In this document: positions 8,605 through 42,330 of the stretch, one piece after another | Layout of the letters: the number at the start of each line of letters is the position of its first letter | Position numbering within the stretch: position 1 is the stretch's first letter | Program-made: the position numbers and the translations under genes | Assembly: GCA_027489355.1 (NCBI GenBank) | Contig: JAIXZY010000020.1 | Span: forward strand, 1-64,000 | Direction: 5' to 3' | Length of the DNA stretch: 64,000 nucleotides | Source of the DNA: Paracoccaceae bacterium | GTDB taxonomy: Bacteria; Pseudomonadota; Alphaproteobacteria; Rhodobacterales; Rhodobacteraceae | Notes under the pieces: generated by a model | The model's input: only the letters and a program-made list of their open reading frames with translations | Database searches by the model: none | What the model was told of the DNA's origin: nothing

Positions 8605-10252
8605 CGCGCCAGCGGTTGACGATCGGATAGCGGCGGTCCAGCCAGAAGGCCTTTTGCGTCAGCCGCACCCCGGGGGCCGACTGGAACCGCTTGTATTCCG
8701 CAAGGTACAGCAGGTGCTCGACCTTCTTCACCACGGCCCGGTCGAAGCCCAGGCCGACGATCTCGGCAACCGACATCTCCTTTTCCACCAGGCATTCCAG
8801 GATCGCGTCCAGCACCTCATAGGGCGGCAGGCTGTCCTGGTCGGTCTGGTTGGCCCGCAGTTCCGCCGACGGCGGCCGCGAGATGATGCGCTCGGGGATC
8901 ACCTCTCCCGCCGGACCCTTCATCCAGGGCCGGTGGTTCTCGTTCCGCCAGCGCGCGGTCAGGAACATGCGGGTCTTGTACATGTCCTTGACCGGGTTGT
9001 AACCCCCGTTCATGTCGCCGTAGATCGTGCAGTAGCCCACAGCCATCTCCGACTTGTTGCCGGTGGTCAGCAGCATCTCGCCGAACTTGTTCGACAGGGC
9101 CATCAACAGCAACCCCCGCAGGCGGGACTGGATGTTCTCCTCGGTGATCCCCGGCTGCGTGCCCTCGAACAGCGGAGCCAAAGCCTCCCCCACCGCTTCT
9201 TGAGCGCCCTTGATCGGCACCGTGTCATAGCGGCAGCCCAAGGCCTTCGCCGCCGCCGTCGCCAGGTCCAGGGACTCCTGGCTGGTGAACTCCGACGGCA
9301 GCATCACGCAGCGCACGTTCTCCGGCCCCAGCGCATCCACCGCCATGGCCGCCACGATCGCCGAGTCGATCCCGCCCGACAGCCCCAGCAGCGCCTTCCG
9401 GAACCCCGTTTTCCGCATGTAATCGCCCAGCGCCAGCACGCAGGCCCGGTAATCCGCCTCGCCAATCGGAGGGATCTCCGCGATCTCCCCCTGGTCCGCC
9501 AGCCACCCCTCCGGCCCCCGCCGGAAGGTGACCATCACCTCGCACTCATCGAACTGCGGCAGTTGCGCCATCAGCCGCCCGCCGGGGTTCAGCACCATGC
9601 TGGAGCCATCGAACACCTGGTCATCCTGCCCGCCCACCATGTTCAGGTAGACCAGCGGCAACCGCGTCTCCACGACGCGGGACACCATCAGGTTCAGCCG
9701 CAGGTTCGGCTTGCCCCGGTGATAGGGCGAGCCATTGGGGATCAGCAAAATCTCCGCCCCCGTCTCGGACAAGGTCTCGGCCACGTCGGGATGCCAGGCG
9801 TCTTCGCAGATCGGCGTCCCGATCCGCACGCCCTTTACAACGTAAGGCCCGTGCACATCGGCCGAGGCAAAGACCCGCTTCTCGTCGAAGACCGCATCGT
9901 TCGGCAGGTGGTGCTTCAAGACGCGGGCATGGACCCGCCCGCCCTCCAGCACGTAATAGCCGTTGTAAAGCTTCAGCCCCTGCAGGACCGGCCCGCCGAT
10001 CCCCAGCGCCGGGCCGTCCGCGCAGACGGCGGCAAGCCGCTCCACCGCCGCGATGGCCGCCTGGACGAAGGCGGGTTTCAGGATCAGGTCCTGGGTCTGG
10101 TAGCCGGTCACGAACATCTCGGTCAGCGCGACCATGTCGGCGCCCGCGGCCTTCCCGCTTTCCCAGGCCGCCCTGGCCCGCGCCACGTTCCCGGCAATGT
10201 CCCCCACCACCGGGTTCAGCTGCGCCAGCATCATCTTGAACGTGTCGGTCAT
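8594..10252 (-). CDS. nadE: Glutamine-dependent NAD+ synthetase
   Basis: This enzyme makes NAD+ from deamido-NAD+ using ammonia released from glutamine. It is a two-domain protein of 552 aa. The N-terminal nitrilase-type amidase domain has PICEDAWHPD with the catalytic cysteine, and its glutamate and lysine lie upstream. The C-terminal synthetase domain has the ATP-PPi loop GLSGGIDSAIVAAM, followed by LLTTGNKSEMAVGY and YGDMNGGYNPVKDMYKT. The start is the ATG at 10252 (MTDTFKMMLAQLNPVVGD), where the nitrilase fold begins; the open frame to 10339 is not needed. It is divergent from the MORN-repeat gene. Confidence 0.97.
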   Translation of the reverse strand: MTDTFKMMLAQLNPVVGDIAGNVARARAAWESGKAAGADMVALTEMFVTGYQTQDLILKPAFVQAAIAAVERLAAVCADGPALGIGGPVLQGLKLYNGYYVLEGGRVHARVLKHHLPNDAVFDEKRVFASADVHGPYVVKGVRIGTPICEDAWHPDVAETLSETGAEILLIPNGSPYHRGKPNLRLNLMVSRVVETRLPLVYLNMVGGQDDQVFDGSSMVLNPGGRLMAQLPQFDECEVMVTFRRGPEGWLADQGEIAEIPPIGEADYRACVLALGDYMRKTGFRKALLGLSGGIDSAIVAAMAVDALGPENVRCVMLPSEFTSQESLDLATAAAKALGCRYDTVPIKGAQEAVGEALAPLFEGTQPGITEENIQSRLRGLLLMALSNKFGEMLLTTGNKSEMAVGYCTIYGDMNGGYNPVKDMYKTRMFLTARWRNENHRPWMKGPAGEVIPERIISRPPSAELRANQTDQDSLPPYEVLDAILECLVEKEMSVAEIVGLGFDRAVVKKVEHLLYLAEYKRFQSAPGVRLTQKAFWLDRRYPIVNRWRDDG

Positions 10253-34811: not shown

Positions 34812-36857
34812 TCACCCCTCCCGCAGGGCCGCCAGAAAGGCCTCCCCGAACCGCTCGATCTTGGCCTCGCCCATCCCGGAAATGCCGGCCAGTTCCGCCA
34901 GGGTCGAGGGCCGCCGCTCCACGACGGCCCGCAGCGTCGCGGGCGAGCAGGTCAGGTATTTCCCCGTCCCGCCCTCGCCCCGGCACAGCTCCAGCTGCAC
35001 CTCCGCCAGCCGGTCAAAGAGCGCCCCTTCCGGCCGCCCGACCAGCTTCATCCGGGCCGGGTGCAGCTCCTCCGCCGCGCCGGTGATCACCTCCAGGAAG
35101 GCCGCGCCATAGCTTTCCAGCTTCCGCGCCCCCACCCCGGTAATCCCCGCCATCTGGTCCAGGGTGACAGGCTTCCGCTCCGCCATCTCGATCAGCGTCT
35201 TGTCCGGGAAGACCACATAGGCCGGCACGTTCTGCGCCTCGGCCAGCGCCCGCCGGCGGGCCTTCAGCAAGGCCAGCAGCCCCGCGTCCTCCTCGGCCAC
35301 CTGCGCCCGGACGACCGGCTCCCGCTCCCCCGCCGCCACCACGGTATCCCGCCGCAGGGTCACCGGGGCCTCCCCCCGCAGCACCGGCCGCGCGGCCTCG
35401 GTCATCCGCAGCGCGCCGTGGCGGTCCGGGTCGGGCCTCACGAGATCGCGGCCCATCATCTGCCGGAAGACCGCCCCCCAGGCGGGTTTCGACAGGTCGC
35501 GCCCGACCGCGAAGGTCGGGAGCTGGTCGTGGCCCTTCTCCCGCACCTTCGGCGTCGCGGTCCCGGTCAGGATGTCGATCAGATGCCCCGCCCCGAACCA
35601 CTCCCCCGTCCGCAGGATCGCCGAGAGCGCCTTCCGCACCGCCTCGGTCGCGTCGAAGAGCTGCGCCGGGCGGTCGCAGAGATCGCAGTTCCCGCAAGGT
35701 TCGGCCTGCTCGCCGAAATACCCCAGCAACACCTGCCGCCGACAGCCCAAGGCCTCGGCCAGACCCAGCAGCGCATTCAGCCGGGCGTGGTCCGCGGCCT
35801 TGCGGTCCGGAGGCGCCGCGCCCTCGTCGATCTGCGACCGGCGCAGGCGGATGTCGTCGGGACCGTAAAGGGTCATCGTCTCGGCCGCGGAACCGTCGCG
35901 GCCCGCGCGGCCGATTTCCTGGTAGTATCCCTCGATCGACTTCGGCAGGTCGGCGTGGGCCACCCAGCGGATGTCGGGCTTGTCGATCCCCATGCCGAAG
36001 GCGATCGTCGCCACCACGATCAGCCCGTCCTCGCGCTGGAAGCGGGCCTCGACCTGGCGGCGCTCGTCGGCCTCCATCCCGCCGTGATAGGCCACCGCCT
36101 CATGCCGCGCCTCGCGGAGCGCCTGGGCCAGCGTCTCGGTCTTGGCCCGCGTCGCGCAATACACGATGCCAGACTGCCCCCGCCGCGCGGCGGCGAAGCG
36201 GAGGATCTGCTCGCGCGGCTTGTCCTTCACCGCGAAGGCCAGGTGGATGTTCGGCCGGTCGAAGCCGCGCAGGAAGGTCACGGGCGGCTCGCCGTCGAAA
36301 AGGCGAGTCACGATCTCGGCCCGCGTCTCCTCATCCGCCGTCGCGGTAAAGGCCGCCAGGGGCACCCGGAGCGACCGGCGCAACTCGCCGATCCGCAGGT
36401 AGTCGGGGCGGAAGTCGTGGCCCCATTGGCTGACGCAATGCGCCTCGTCCACCGCGATCAGGCTGCACTTCGCCCGGCGCAGAAGCGCCAGCGCGCCGCC
36501 CGAGGCCAGGCGTTCCGGCGCCATGTACAGAAGCTTCAGCCGCCCGTCGTCGATGGCCTGGAAGACCTCTTCCGTCTCTTCGTCCGTGTTGCCCGAGGTC
36601 AGCGCCCCGGCCTCGACCCCCGCCGCGCGCAGGGCGCGGACCTGGTCGCGCATCAGCGCGATGAGCGGAGAGATGACGACCGTCACCCCGTCCCGGCACA
36701 GGGCAGGCAGTTGGAAACACAGGGATTTCCCGCCGCCCGTCGGCATGATCGCCAGGGTGTTGCGGCCCTGGAGGACGGACTGCACGATCTCGGCCTGACC
36801 CGGGCGGAAGTCCGGGAAGCCGAAGACGGAATGCAGAAGCCGGGCCGCCTGGTCCAA
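34812..36857 (-). CDS. recQ: ATP-dependent DNA helicase RecQ
   Basis: This is a 3'-5' DNA helicase for recombination and repair, 681 aa long. Motif I is MPTGGGKSLCFQLPAL and the DEAH-type box is AVDEAHCVSQWGHDFRPDY. Motif VI is QEIGRAGRDG. The RQC zinc-binding cysteines appear in CRRQVLLGYFGEQAEPCGNC. Two HRDC domains follow (around FPDKTLIEMAERKP and SPATLRAVVERRP), one more than in E. coli RecQ. The start is a TTG at 36857, 2 nt after the yggT stop, with a weak ribosome-binding site; translation is probably coupled to yggT. Confidence 0.95.
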   Translation of the reverse strand: MDQAARLLHSVFGFPDFRPGQAEIVQSVLQGRNTLAIMPTGGGKSLCFQLPALCRDGVTVVISPLIALMRDQVRALRAAGVEAGALTSGNTDEETEEVFQAIDDGRLKLLYMAPERLASGGALALLRRAKCSLIAVDEAHCVSQWGHDFRPDYLRIGELRRSLRVPLAAFTATADEETRAEIVTRLFDGEPPVTFLRGFDRPNIHLAFAVKDKPREQILRFAAARRGQSGIVYCATRAKTETLAQALREARHEAVAYHGGMEADERRQVEARFQREDGLIVVATIAFGMGIDKPDIRWVAHADLPKSIEGYYQEIGRAGRDGSAAETMTLYGPDDIRLRRSQIDEGAAPPDRKAADHARLNALLGLAEALGCRRQVLLGYFGEQAEPCGNCDLCDRPAQLFDATEAVRKALSAILRTGEWFGAGHLIDILTGTATPKVREKGHDQLPTFAVGRDLSKPAWGAVFRQMMGRDLVRPDPDRHGALRMTEAARPVLRGEAPVTLRRDTVVAAGEREPVVRAQVAEEDAGLLALLKARRRALAEAQNVPAYVVFPDKTLIEMAERKPVTLDQMAGITGVGARKLESYGAAFLEVITGAAEELHPARMKLVGRPEGALFDRLAEVQLELCRGEGGTGKYLTCSPATLRAVVERRPSTLAELAGISGMGEAKIERFGEAFLAALREG

Positions 36858-40257: not shown

Positions 40258-40878
40258 ATGCGCACCCTTCTTCCTGGCATCCTTGCCATGGCGGCGATCG
40301 TCGTCGCATCCAACATCCTGGTCCAGTACCCGCTGGGCGCCTTCCTGACCTGGGGGGCGCTGACCTACCCCTTCGCCTTCCTGGTGAACGAGATCGTGAA
40401 CCGCTTCGACGGTCCCGCCGCTGCCCGGAAGGTGGTGCTGGTGGGGTTTCTCACCGGGATCATCTGTTCCTTCATCGGCACCCGGATCGAGGGCGAATTC
40501 GGCCCGCTGGTCACGCTGCGCGTCGCCCTCGGCTCGGGCATCGCTTTCCTTGCCGCCCAGCTTCTGGACATCACGATCTTCAACCGCTTCCGCCAGGGCC
40601 TGTGGTGGCGTGCGCCGCTGATTTCTCCGGTGATCTCCTCGACGCTTGATACGGCAATCTTCTTCACCATCGCCTTCTCGGCCGCGTTCACCTTCCTGGA
40701 ACCCGTTGTCGACGTGTCCTGGGCCACGCAGCCGACGCCGTTGCTGGGTCTTGGCCCAGACGCGCCCTTCTGGGTTTCGCTGGCCGTTGGTGACTGGCTG
40801 GTGAAGCTTCTGCTTGCCGGGGTGGCATTGTTGCCGTTTCGATTGGCACTTGCCCGCTGGGCCGCAAAGGTTGCGTGA
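40258..40878 (+). CDS. yhhQ: Queuosine precursor transporter (YhhQ/VUT family)
   Basis: This inner-membrane ECF-like importer of queuosine precursors has 206 aa and about six hydrophobic segments. ASNILVQYPLG, TYPFAFLVNEIVNRFDG and the C-terminal GDWLVKLLLAGVALLPF are family signatures. The start is the ATG at 40258. I looked upstream for a preQ1 riboswitch and did not find a convincing one in the 96 nt available. It is the last gene before the small 18-codon unit and the integrase. Confidence 0.93.
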   Translation: MRTLLPGILAMAAIVVASNILVQYPLGAFLTWGALTYPFAFLVNEIVNRFDGPAAARKVVLVGFLTGIICSFIGTRIEGEFGPLVTLRVALGSGIAFLAAQLLDITIFNRFRQGLWWRAPLISPVISSTLDTAIFFTIAFSAAFTFLEPVVDVSWATQPTPLLGLGPDAPFWVSLAVGDWLVKLLLAGVALLPFRLALARWAAKVA

Positions 40879-40932
40879 ATTGTTTTGACAAACACAAAAT
40901 CTGTGTCACGCTCCCCTTATCGGCAACCATTT

Positions 40933-40948
40933 GAAAGGAGGTGATCCA
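40933..40948 (+). promoter_or_regulatory. Extended Shine-Dalgarno complementary to the 16S rRNA 3' end
   Basis: GAAAGGAGGTGATCCA is an exact reverse complement of the usual alphaproteobacterial 16S rRNA end TGGATCACCTCCTTTC over about 16 nt. Typical sites pair over 4-7 nt. It is followed by the start codon of an 18-codon frame at 40949. Downstream CTCCTT (41062-41067) and TGGATC (41067-41072) could each pair with part of it and mask it. A TTGACA box at 40885-40890 could be a -35 element, but no good -10 was seen; an ACACA/TGTGT inverted repeat lies just beside it. Confidence 0.75.
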
Positions 40949-41005
40949 GTGTCTAGAGTGATATTGGAGAGAGGTGTCGGGACAGTCGGGAGGGGTATTT
41001 TCTAA
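40949..41005 (+). CDS. Candidate 18-residue leader peptide
   Basis: A GTG-started 18-codon frame (VSRVILERGVGTVGRGIF) ends in TAA at 41003-41005. It directly follows an exceptionally long Shine-Dalgarno sequence, although the start codon lies unusually close to it. A strong intrinsic terminator sits about 70 nt downstream, so the whole unit is about 180 nt. The untranslated stretch between contains an AGGGCA/TGCCCT pairing (41004-41009 with 41045-41050). I do not recognise it. It may encode a real micropeptide, or the frame may only position ribosomes on a regulatory RNA. Confidence 0.5.
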   Translation: MSRVILERGVGTVGRGIF

Positions 41006-41075
41006 GGGCAGCCCCTGGAAAATAGACCACCGATTGGATTTGGATGCCCTAACTGGCCCATCTCCTTGGATCTCG

Positions 41076-41106
41076 GAAAGGGTTGCCTGAGCAGGGCAAC
41101 CCTTTC
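41076..41106 (+). terminator. Strong intrinsic terminator of the 18-codon unit
   Basis: Arms GAAAGGGTTGCC/GGCAACCCTTTC pair over 12 bp around a 7-nt loop (TGAGCAG). They are followed by TCTATTTGATG. It is the clearest rho-independent terminator in the window. Confidence 0.85.
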
Positions 41107-41229
41107 TCTATTTGATGTAAGGGAAATTCAATCTTTTCAGTAGATTGGGCGAGGGAGCCGTGAAGGAGGGACGCCTACGGTTCCGTTACGGTGCTTATTC
41201 AGTCCCGACTCTATACTTCGCCCTCCAGC

Positions 41230-42330
41230 TCATGCCCGCCGGTTAAGTGCTGCAACAACGCTTTGCTGGTGGTCAGGACTGTGGTGGCCATATACTTCTT
41301 CGATGGTCCGTAGTGACGTCGAGAAGTAGCCTGCCGCGTCCCATGGCGACGCACCCTTTTGCATCGCCCAAGTGATAGCAGTGTGCTTCAAAGTGTGAGG
41401 CGTCACATCTGAGAGGTCGATGTCGATGCCCTTGGTTCGGGCCAACTCCGCTGCGAGCAAAATTGCGCGTTTCCAGCCGGTTTCAATATCGCCTACACGA
41501 CGGCCCTTGTAGTCCTCAACAACGAACTTGCGCCCGTTCTTCGCCTGTCTGCGGAGGTGGGCGAGATAACGATCGGGGAGACGACAGACGCCCTGCCGCT
41601 TCTTCGTCATGACCTTTCCGATGGGCTTGCGGAAGAGGAGGCCCTGGATGGTGTCCACATGGCCGCCAGACATCGACGGGGTGTTCATGTGCATGGCCAG
41701 GATGGTGGCCTTCCTGGAGCCAGTGTAGAGTCCGTGCAGGATGAAGTCTTGCAAGTGCCGTCCATCCAGGCGCAGATTTCTCGCAGCTCTGAGAAGCCAT
41801 GCAGCTTCCTGCCTGGTTAGCCAGCGTTCCTTTCCAGCCGGTCTCGCGGGAAGGCTTACTTGGGCCGGGGTGGTGAGCTTGCCTTCCTTGAGGCAGTAGT
41901 TCACGGCCGCCTGCAGGACGTTCAGCTCGCGGCGAATGGTGCCCGGAGAGGCCGGTCCCCGCTTGGTGATGCGGGACTTGCCATAGGCCCGGCAGGTGTT
42001 GCCGGTGATCTCCGAGACCCTCCGGTTGCCCCAGAAGGGGATGAGGGCCTCGATGGCATAGCCCAAGCGCCAAGGAGCGGCGACATGGGGAGCATGCTCC
42101 TCGCCGTAGATCGCAAGGCAATCGGCGAGGAGCATCTCCTGGGCGGATACCGGCCCGGTGGGCCGATACTTTTCGCCTATGTATACGGCGAGTTTTTCTT
42201 CAGCTTTCTGGCGATCGTCCGTGCCACAGCTGATGCGGGTTGTACCGTCTCGGATTTCCCAGAAGGACGCAAAGCCTTCAGCGCTTCTGTTCCGCCAGAC
42301 AAGGCGAGCCCCCTTAGTCTTCCTCGGCAT
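41230..42330 (-). CDS. Tyrosine-type site-specific recombinase / integrase
   Basis: This is a phage-type integrase of 366 aa. The C-terminal catalytic domain shows the arginine in GLYTGSRKATILAM, HTLKHTAITW (an HxxK variant of the usual HxxR box) and the nucleophilic tyrosine in IEEVYGHHSP. The N-terminal part has a SAM-like DNA-binding domain. The frame is intact. It lies at the junction between tightly packed core genes and the loose accessory region. Neither an adjacent intact tRNA nor a clear direct repeat was found, so the attachment sites are undefined. Confidence 0.93.
   Translation of the reverse strand: MPRKTKGARLVWRNRSAEGFASFWEIRDGTTRISCGTDDRQKAEEKLAVYIGEKYRPTGPVSAQEMLLADCLAIYGEEHAPHVAAPWRLGYAIEALIPFWGNRRVSEITGNTCRAYGKSRITKRGPASPGTIRRELNVLQAAVNYCLKEGKLTTPAQVSLPARPAGKERWLTRQEAAWLLRAARNLRLDGRHLQDFILHGLYTGSRKATILAMHMNTPSMSGGHVDTIQGLLFRKPIGKVMTKKRQGVCRLPDRYLAHLRRQAKNGRKFVVEDYKGRRVGDIETGWKRAILLAAELARTKGIDIDLSDVTPHTLKHTAITWAMQKGASPWDAAGYFSTSLRTIEEVYGHHSPDHQQSVVAALNRRA

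Follow-up and report, generated by a model that had tools for sequence, protein, structure and literature searches.

The CC2171 RNA of Caulobacter (Rfam RF01867) is typed as a small RNA (sRNA) by Rfam, and its original description is said to be that of Landt et al. in 2008. No function or reading frame was found for the family in the open literature searched. The literature passages on CC2171 mention no reading frame, and the only mentions of it as this RNA in excerpts from the open literature are an Rfam table (PMC11701678) and a Mesorhizobium list, where MH_s33 is given as CC2171 (PMC5596092). In the leader of Sinorhizobium meliloti duf1127_1, an attenuator with an upstream open reading frame (uORF), it is the translation and not the peptide that has been proposed, in passages of the respective paper, to monitor ribosome availability (PMC12218461). 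Here we analyze a unit at positions 40885–41110 of a 64,000-nucleotide stretch of DNA, called the window in the following, from a Paracoccaceae bacterium of the Rhodobacteraceae (assembly GCA_027489355.1, contig JAIXZY010000020.1, positions 1–64,000). Judged from sequence comparison this unit is a core RNA gene of about 190 bases that occurs in many alphaproteobacteria and is a divergent relative of CC2171. We see about even chances that it is a stand-alone core small-RNA gene which acts through ribosomes that bind and translate it and not via its peptide.

The original prediction, which was made from the letters of the window without any database search, had not recognized the unit, but a relative could be found, as the RF01867 model matches with its positions 1–159 on 40925–41103 (32.4 bits, E = 1.7e-5). 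The match is collinear over the full length of the model and includes the 5' block and the terminator, both RNAs showing the same order of GAAAGGAGGUGAUCCAGUGUCU, structured stretch and terminator, but its score lies below the curated cut-off of 75 bits. Furthermore, the long helix of RF01867, in which codons 3–5 of the start region pair with the pre-terminator stretch, is not formed in the window, where it was left out of the alignment; the family of the window is instead predicted to form the helices P1 and P2 and to pair its Shine–Dalgarno (SD) sequence. By the Rfam cut-off and the long helix the unit is therefore not a CC2171 member. A tRNA, a tmRNA or another Rfam family was excluded as well, as none of them reaches its own cut-off on the unit in the Rfam scan. 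By analogy, the duf1127_1 leader is the nearest experimentally examined parallel that we found: excerpts of the paper describe a leader that is alike in outline, with a short upstream frame and a ribosome-binding site paired inside it, but is probably Rho-dependent, has no intrinsic terminator and acts in cis on one gene (PMC12218461). At the extended SD starts of Staphylococcus aureus the SD and the anti-SD likewise pair over a long stretch, and some of these sites precede small frames, but as far as the available passages go they are start sites of mRNAs in another phylum and not part of a separate RNA gene (PMC13009471). Escherichia coli ArfA, as described in part of the respective source, is a ribosome-rescue gene controlled by ribosome status via trans-translation, unlike the window unit, whose frame keeps its stop (PMC10107115).

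A BLAST search with the unit gave matches at E 0.001 in 247 of 295 genomes of the same family, its own included, the weakest matches being partial. From 110 gathered family loci two (L079 and L129) were dropped as their core was not recognizable, leaving 108. For the rest of the class we took the best of the loci in 85 genomes matching RF01867 and 96 genomes matching a 21-base pattern, together with the best from the wider sample described below. From these 57 distinct loci three without a short frame after the block were dropped (L158, L159 and L161), leaving 54; the SD-pairing and the masking and swap tests also exclude L150 and L153 (52 loci), and the swap and masking test leaves out six further loci without a clear terminator (46 loci).

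At positions 40933–40949 of the plus strand, on which all features of the unit lie, GAAAGGAGGTGATCCAG is the exact 17-nt complement of CTGGATCACCTCCTTTC and forms an extended SD matching the 3' tail of 16S rRNA. The original prediction had put this complement at about 16 nt; it is real and exact, the length being 17 nt. By a simple calculation, chance alone would produce a particular 17-mer about 5e-4 times in a genome of 4.2 Mb. On both strands of the window the next-longest exact matches that include bases of the SD have 10 nt (GGAGGTGATC at 35094 and GAGGTGATCC at 8905 of the minus strand), while longer exact matches to the tail complement (up to 13 nt) lie outside the SD. A search for 16S (RF00177) in eight genomes, the one of the window among them, gave no match, and pairing was judged against the 16S ends of two other family genomes, which read CTGCGGCTGGATCACCTCCTTTCTA (L033) or its complement (L034) and pair perfectly with the block. 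All 16 positions compared are pairable in 101 of the 108 family relatives; 53 loci have the block of 16 nt unchanged, and 47 carry its most frequent variant, in which an A is replaced by G and a G–U pair is retained.

The predicted duplex with the 16S tail amounts to −35.0 kcal/mol versus −10.4 to −13.0 kcal/mol for three ordinary, hand-chosen SD sequences. Such a strong duplex would fit a ribosome sponge, an RNA that titrates 30S subunits or occludes the anti-SD, but a sponge would not need the conserved start, frame and stop described below, and the unit is mostly a single-copy gene, which on general grounds is unlikely to match the number of ribosomes; we consider the sponge distinctly improbable. 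The complementarity also spans the whole single-stranded tail, as one might expect from a guide or chaperone for maturation or quality control of the 16S 3' end that is paired with the tail up to its UUUC end. This idea leaves the frame unexplained, no partner enzyme has emerged for it, although no search aimed at one was made, and it appears to us very improbable.

The block leads into a frame of 18 codons, as the original prediction had it (40949–41005, VSRVILERGVGTVGRGIF), which starts with GTG at 40949–40951 and stops with TAA at 41003–41005. A GTG start is present in all 108 family loci and the length is exactly 18 codons in 102 of them, even if the stop itself changes between TGA, TAG and TAA. 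At codon 19 TGG was never seen, although 17.3 cases would be expected if the two bases varied independently, and the frames shifted by +1 and +2 stop at 18–26 codons in only 10 and 6 of the 108 loci, respectively. In a second set, fetched from named records with the exact core pattern and possibly overlapping in species with the first one, 114 of at least 120 loci among the matches listed have the 18-codon frame. Loci from other alphaproteobacterial families have a frame of 18–26 codons in 48 of 54 cases, compared to 10 and 9 of 54 for the other two frames and 8.5% for random starts. L150 and L153 carry the same anti-16S block before frames of 58 and 56 codons, respectively, whose beginning is hydrophobic, in contrast to the short frames of the other loci.

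What these frames encode is hardly conserved. From 222 close pairs with 179 synonymous and 421 other single changes we obtained a ratio of non-synonymous to synonymous changes (dN/dS) of about 0.89, a crude pair count over pairs that are not independent, and at this value purifying selection on the amino acids, as expected for a small protein, is not seen. A micropeptide gene was one of the options of the original prediction. Such a gene, conserved and equipped with a ribosome-binding site of unusual strength, would agree with the conserved start, frame and stop and with the peptide core VSR--LE--VGT found within the Rhodobacteraceae. Besides the dN/dS ratio, it is disfavored by the position of the conserved residues, which mostly fall inside RNA helices, and by the peptides from other families, which appear unrelated, and we regard it as quite unlikely. 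On the sequences compared, it is thus the frame which is conserved and hardly its peptide.

The RNA from 40915 to 41115 (201 nt) has a predicted folding energy of −84.2 kcal/mol (z = −4.1 versus 200 shuffles). In the family consensus calculated with RNAalifold the SD sequence GGAGGUG pairs with CAUCUCC just 5' of the terminator to form P1 (40935–40943 with CATCTCCTT at 41059–41067), in which 92.8% of the cells are paired in the 108 relatives. It is accompanied by the hairpin P2, which encloses the start codon (40945–40968, 96.6% of the cells paired), by three further main helices and by the terminator. P5 surrounds the stop codon (40996–41023, limits approximate) and shows 84.2% paired cells with double changes at five pairs. 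The intrinsic terminator (41077–41110) has a stem of 41077–41087 and 41095–41105, which confirms the strong terminator predicted originally; in the relatives 97.5% of its cells are paired and all 11 pairs show double changes. P3, P4, P5 and the terminator exceed 200 of 200 shuffles in both pairing and double changes, tested with a structure derived from the same alignment. Both the pairing region and the terminator are hence conserved in relatives, the conservation by which the original prediction was to be judged. In the Rhodobacteraceae the SD core is predicted to be paired more (0.824) than in shuffled sequences (0.627), and in 99 of 108 loci its value exceeds the average of the shuffles made from the same locus. 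It had also been suggested that CTCCTT and TGGATC could mask the site, of which the former is supported within the family and the latter is not, being present at this position in only 8 of 108 relatives.

The unit is widespread in the class. Of 385 alphaproteobacterial genomes, 85 have a match to the RF01867 model, which in 13 of them scores above the cut-off, and among 14 control genomes only Caulobacter vibrioides gives a match. The 21-base pattern with up to two mismatches occurs in 96 of the 385 genomes. In the wider sample it was found in 84 of 135 alphaproteobacteria, compared to 4 of 263 genomes from elsewhere in the phylum, with GGAGGTGATCC being intact in none of these four. The reversed pattern, used as a control, matched 2 of the 385 and 8 of the 398 genomes of the two samples, respectively. 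The anti-16S site, the short frame and usually also the terminator recur in the relatives from other families of the Alphaproteobacteria; the terminator could be clearly called in 46 of 52 class loci. A record titled as an Exiguobacterium profundum metagenome-assembled genome (L256) carries the Rhodobacteraceae core pattern and looks mislabelled or mixed. In 33 class loci with an MSH-type start, codons 3–5 can pair with the pre-terminator stretch, each pair being possible in 27–32 of the 33, in a helix CAUUGUC/GACAAUG with compensated versions in several loci such as L180 and L064. A pre-terminator stretch which folds back onto the start region is therefore a predicted theme shared across the class.

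Taken together, the comparison supports a promoter-like site, a docking site for the whole 16S tail, a start at normal spacing, a frame with its length and stop, a fold and a terminator, and from these elements the following model can be proposed for a stand-alone RNA that is ribosome-bound and translated. The unit would be transcribed and a 30S subunit would dock through a duplex of 16–17 bp with the whole 16S tail. The docked subunit would invade the fold, translate the short frame and leave, and the RNA may in this way alternate between a form opened by the ribosome and a closed one. Thereby it would report the availability of intact 30S subunits, and the output might lie in how stable the RNA is, or in base pairing in trans between targets and one of the two forms.

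Several observations weigh against this model. The search for relatives relied on similarity to the core and is thereby biased towards conserved cores, and 289 of the 385 sampled class genomes have no match to the 21-base pattern, making the unit widespread and not universal. The codon positions do not differ in entropy in the family alignment and show no coding signature, and therefore the claim of translation rests on the start, the SD, the frame length and the stop; the crudeness of the pair count behind the dN/dS ratio has to be considered here as well. The helices P0 and P6 are not above shuffles in the family alignment, and P1 and P2 are nearly invariant and offer little covariation. In the rest of the class the predicted pairing of the SD core (0.565) is below that of shuffled sequences (0.656), with only 16 of 52 loci above their shuffles. 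Outside the Rhodobacteraceae the SD core thus shows no special pairing, so that its masking is not general and is, according to the folding models, a feature of this family; masking by an in-frame CCUGGAUC in other families, which we had first supposed, finds no support in the same test. The swap test for the long helix was weak too: of 46 loci, 37 paired better with their own partner than in the median swap, but in only six did this partner beat 95% of the swaps.

The model also differs from a simple switch at the terminator. Masking of the start region leaves the predicted probability of terminator formation at 0.959 both ways in 105 of 108 family loci, three loci without a called terminator being omitted, and thus no terminator/antiterminator switch is predicted and a simple antiterminator freed by such masking can be ruled out. 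The ribosome-dependent switch of the original prediction is partly supported: the start, frame, stop and anti-16S block are conserved and the SD core of the Rhodobacteraceae is predicted to be paired, but this pairing does not extend to the rest of the class and no switch of the terminator is predicted.

This is of importance for the most obvious neighbour of the unit, the ribosome-rescue gene arfB, which according to tblastn follows the unit in the same orientation in 87 of the 108 family loci; in L003 the downstream gene reaches 183.8 bits to NF006718 (ArfB). The distance between terminator stem and arfB start is at least 11 nt with a median of 53 nt, and it is 35 nt or less in 32 of 86 loci. 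Because arfB is so close to the terminator, it is probably reached by readthrough from the unit in many family loci, and gaps of 11–35 nt are too short for a separate promoter unless this overlaps the terminator. The unit could then be a cis-acting leader or attenuator of arfB, in which translation of the 18 codons sets the readthrough into the rescue gene, and a leader responding to ribosome availability is indeed described for S. meliloti in passages of the duf1127_1 paper (PMC12218461). Among the matches listed, 106 named loci have a downstream sequence of 700 nt or more; arfB lies no further than 1500 nt away in 65 of these and at 1510–1822 nt in three more loci, which is not the fixed same-strand downstream gene of an attenuator, and 32 named loci with at least 1500 nt downstream gave no arfB match by tblastn. 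In these 32 loci the next gene was called by composition and then tested against Pfam: 25 have a Pfam domain, 16 of them on the opposite and 9 on the same strand, and seven without a Pfam match (five opposite, two same strand) were left out. The neighbours are diverse and include thiolase, lactate permease, endonuclease and ThiC genes, among others. Also in the available flanks of the 54 relatives from other families no arfB was found by tblastn (0 of 54).

The loci without arfB and the relatives from other families rule out a role as arfB leader everywhere, and together with the unchanged terminator prediction they make such a leader unlikely as the explanation of the unit. Since it persists without arfB and masking leaves its predicted terminator unaltered, the unit is best seen as an autonomous gene, with a cis role for arfB being possible in part of the family. 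In L216, L235, L207, L281, L283 and L284 a convergent thiolase gene follows the unit and seems to replace arfB in one lineage, and in the class relatives L036, L038, L039 and L043 a gene with a DUF188 (YaiI-like) motif lies just 3' of the terminator on the same strand. The stand-alone, translated RNA might even be an alphaproteobacterial RNA that senses those free 30S subunits whose 16S 3' ends are intact, reads the whole tail, is opened by translation of a peptide-neutral frame, acts in trans on RNAs or ribosome homeostasis and is parked beside arfB in the Rhodobacteraceae; this more detailed proposal is tentative and we would rather doubt it.

In the window the unit is preceded by a core gene for a YhhQ-type queuosine precursor transporter (40258–40878, plus strand; TIGR00697 with 79.6 bits at a cut-off of 50.95, Pfam Vut_1 with 83.2 bits). 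Between both a promoter-like site (40885–40912) consists of TTGACA at 40885–40890, the conserved ACAAAATCTGTG at 40894–40905 and a weak −10-like CACGCT at 40907–40912; the consensus of this region in the 108 relatives is TTTTGACAAACACAAAATCTGTG, from which we infer promoter activity. ACAAAATCTGTG, which separates the −35-like from the −10-like site, is conserved in the family and partly palindromic (CACA/TGTG) and could be the site of a regulator. Behind the unit the minus strand encodes a tyrosine-recombinase-like integrase (41230–42330) with a recombinase-type box, HTLKHTAITW; at E 0.001 this integrase matched neither Pfam nor NCBIfam. A 26-bp stretch of the terminator 3' half (41084–41109) is directly repeated at C43:77276–77301, and the arfB of this genome is located at C43:91261–91680 on the strand of the unit, with about 50 kb of inserted DNA in between and preceded by the terminator-like end CACCCTTTCTCTTTCGCG. 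Due to this repeat, the distant arfB and the second terminator-like end, an insert of about 50 kb (C43:41090–91220; window 41090–64000) appears to separate the unit from arfB. It perhaps represents two tandem islands, and the terminator of the unit looks like their putative attachment site. The unit itself is not part of mobile DNA, which sits between the terminator and arfB, and a search of plasmid and phage collections with the unit gave no match. The suggestion that it may be core despite the adjacent integrase was correct, as the integrase belongs to the DNA inserted at the terminator and lies outside the unit. Elsewhere in the window we detected a glycine riboswitch (RF00504, 2391–2491, minus strand, 48.6 bits) and a serC leader (RF00517, 16475–16526, plus strand, 67.4 bits).

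In summary, an almost maximal complement of the 16S tail is carried by a relative of a family filed as sRNA, and relatives of the unit, including one in Caulobacter, are spread over many families of a single bacterial class. In the short frame the length and the stop are kept while the peptide drifts, which suggests that the act of translation is the function. Such a function would be uncommon among stand-alone RNAs.
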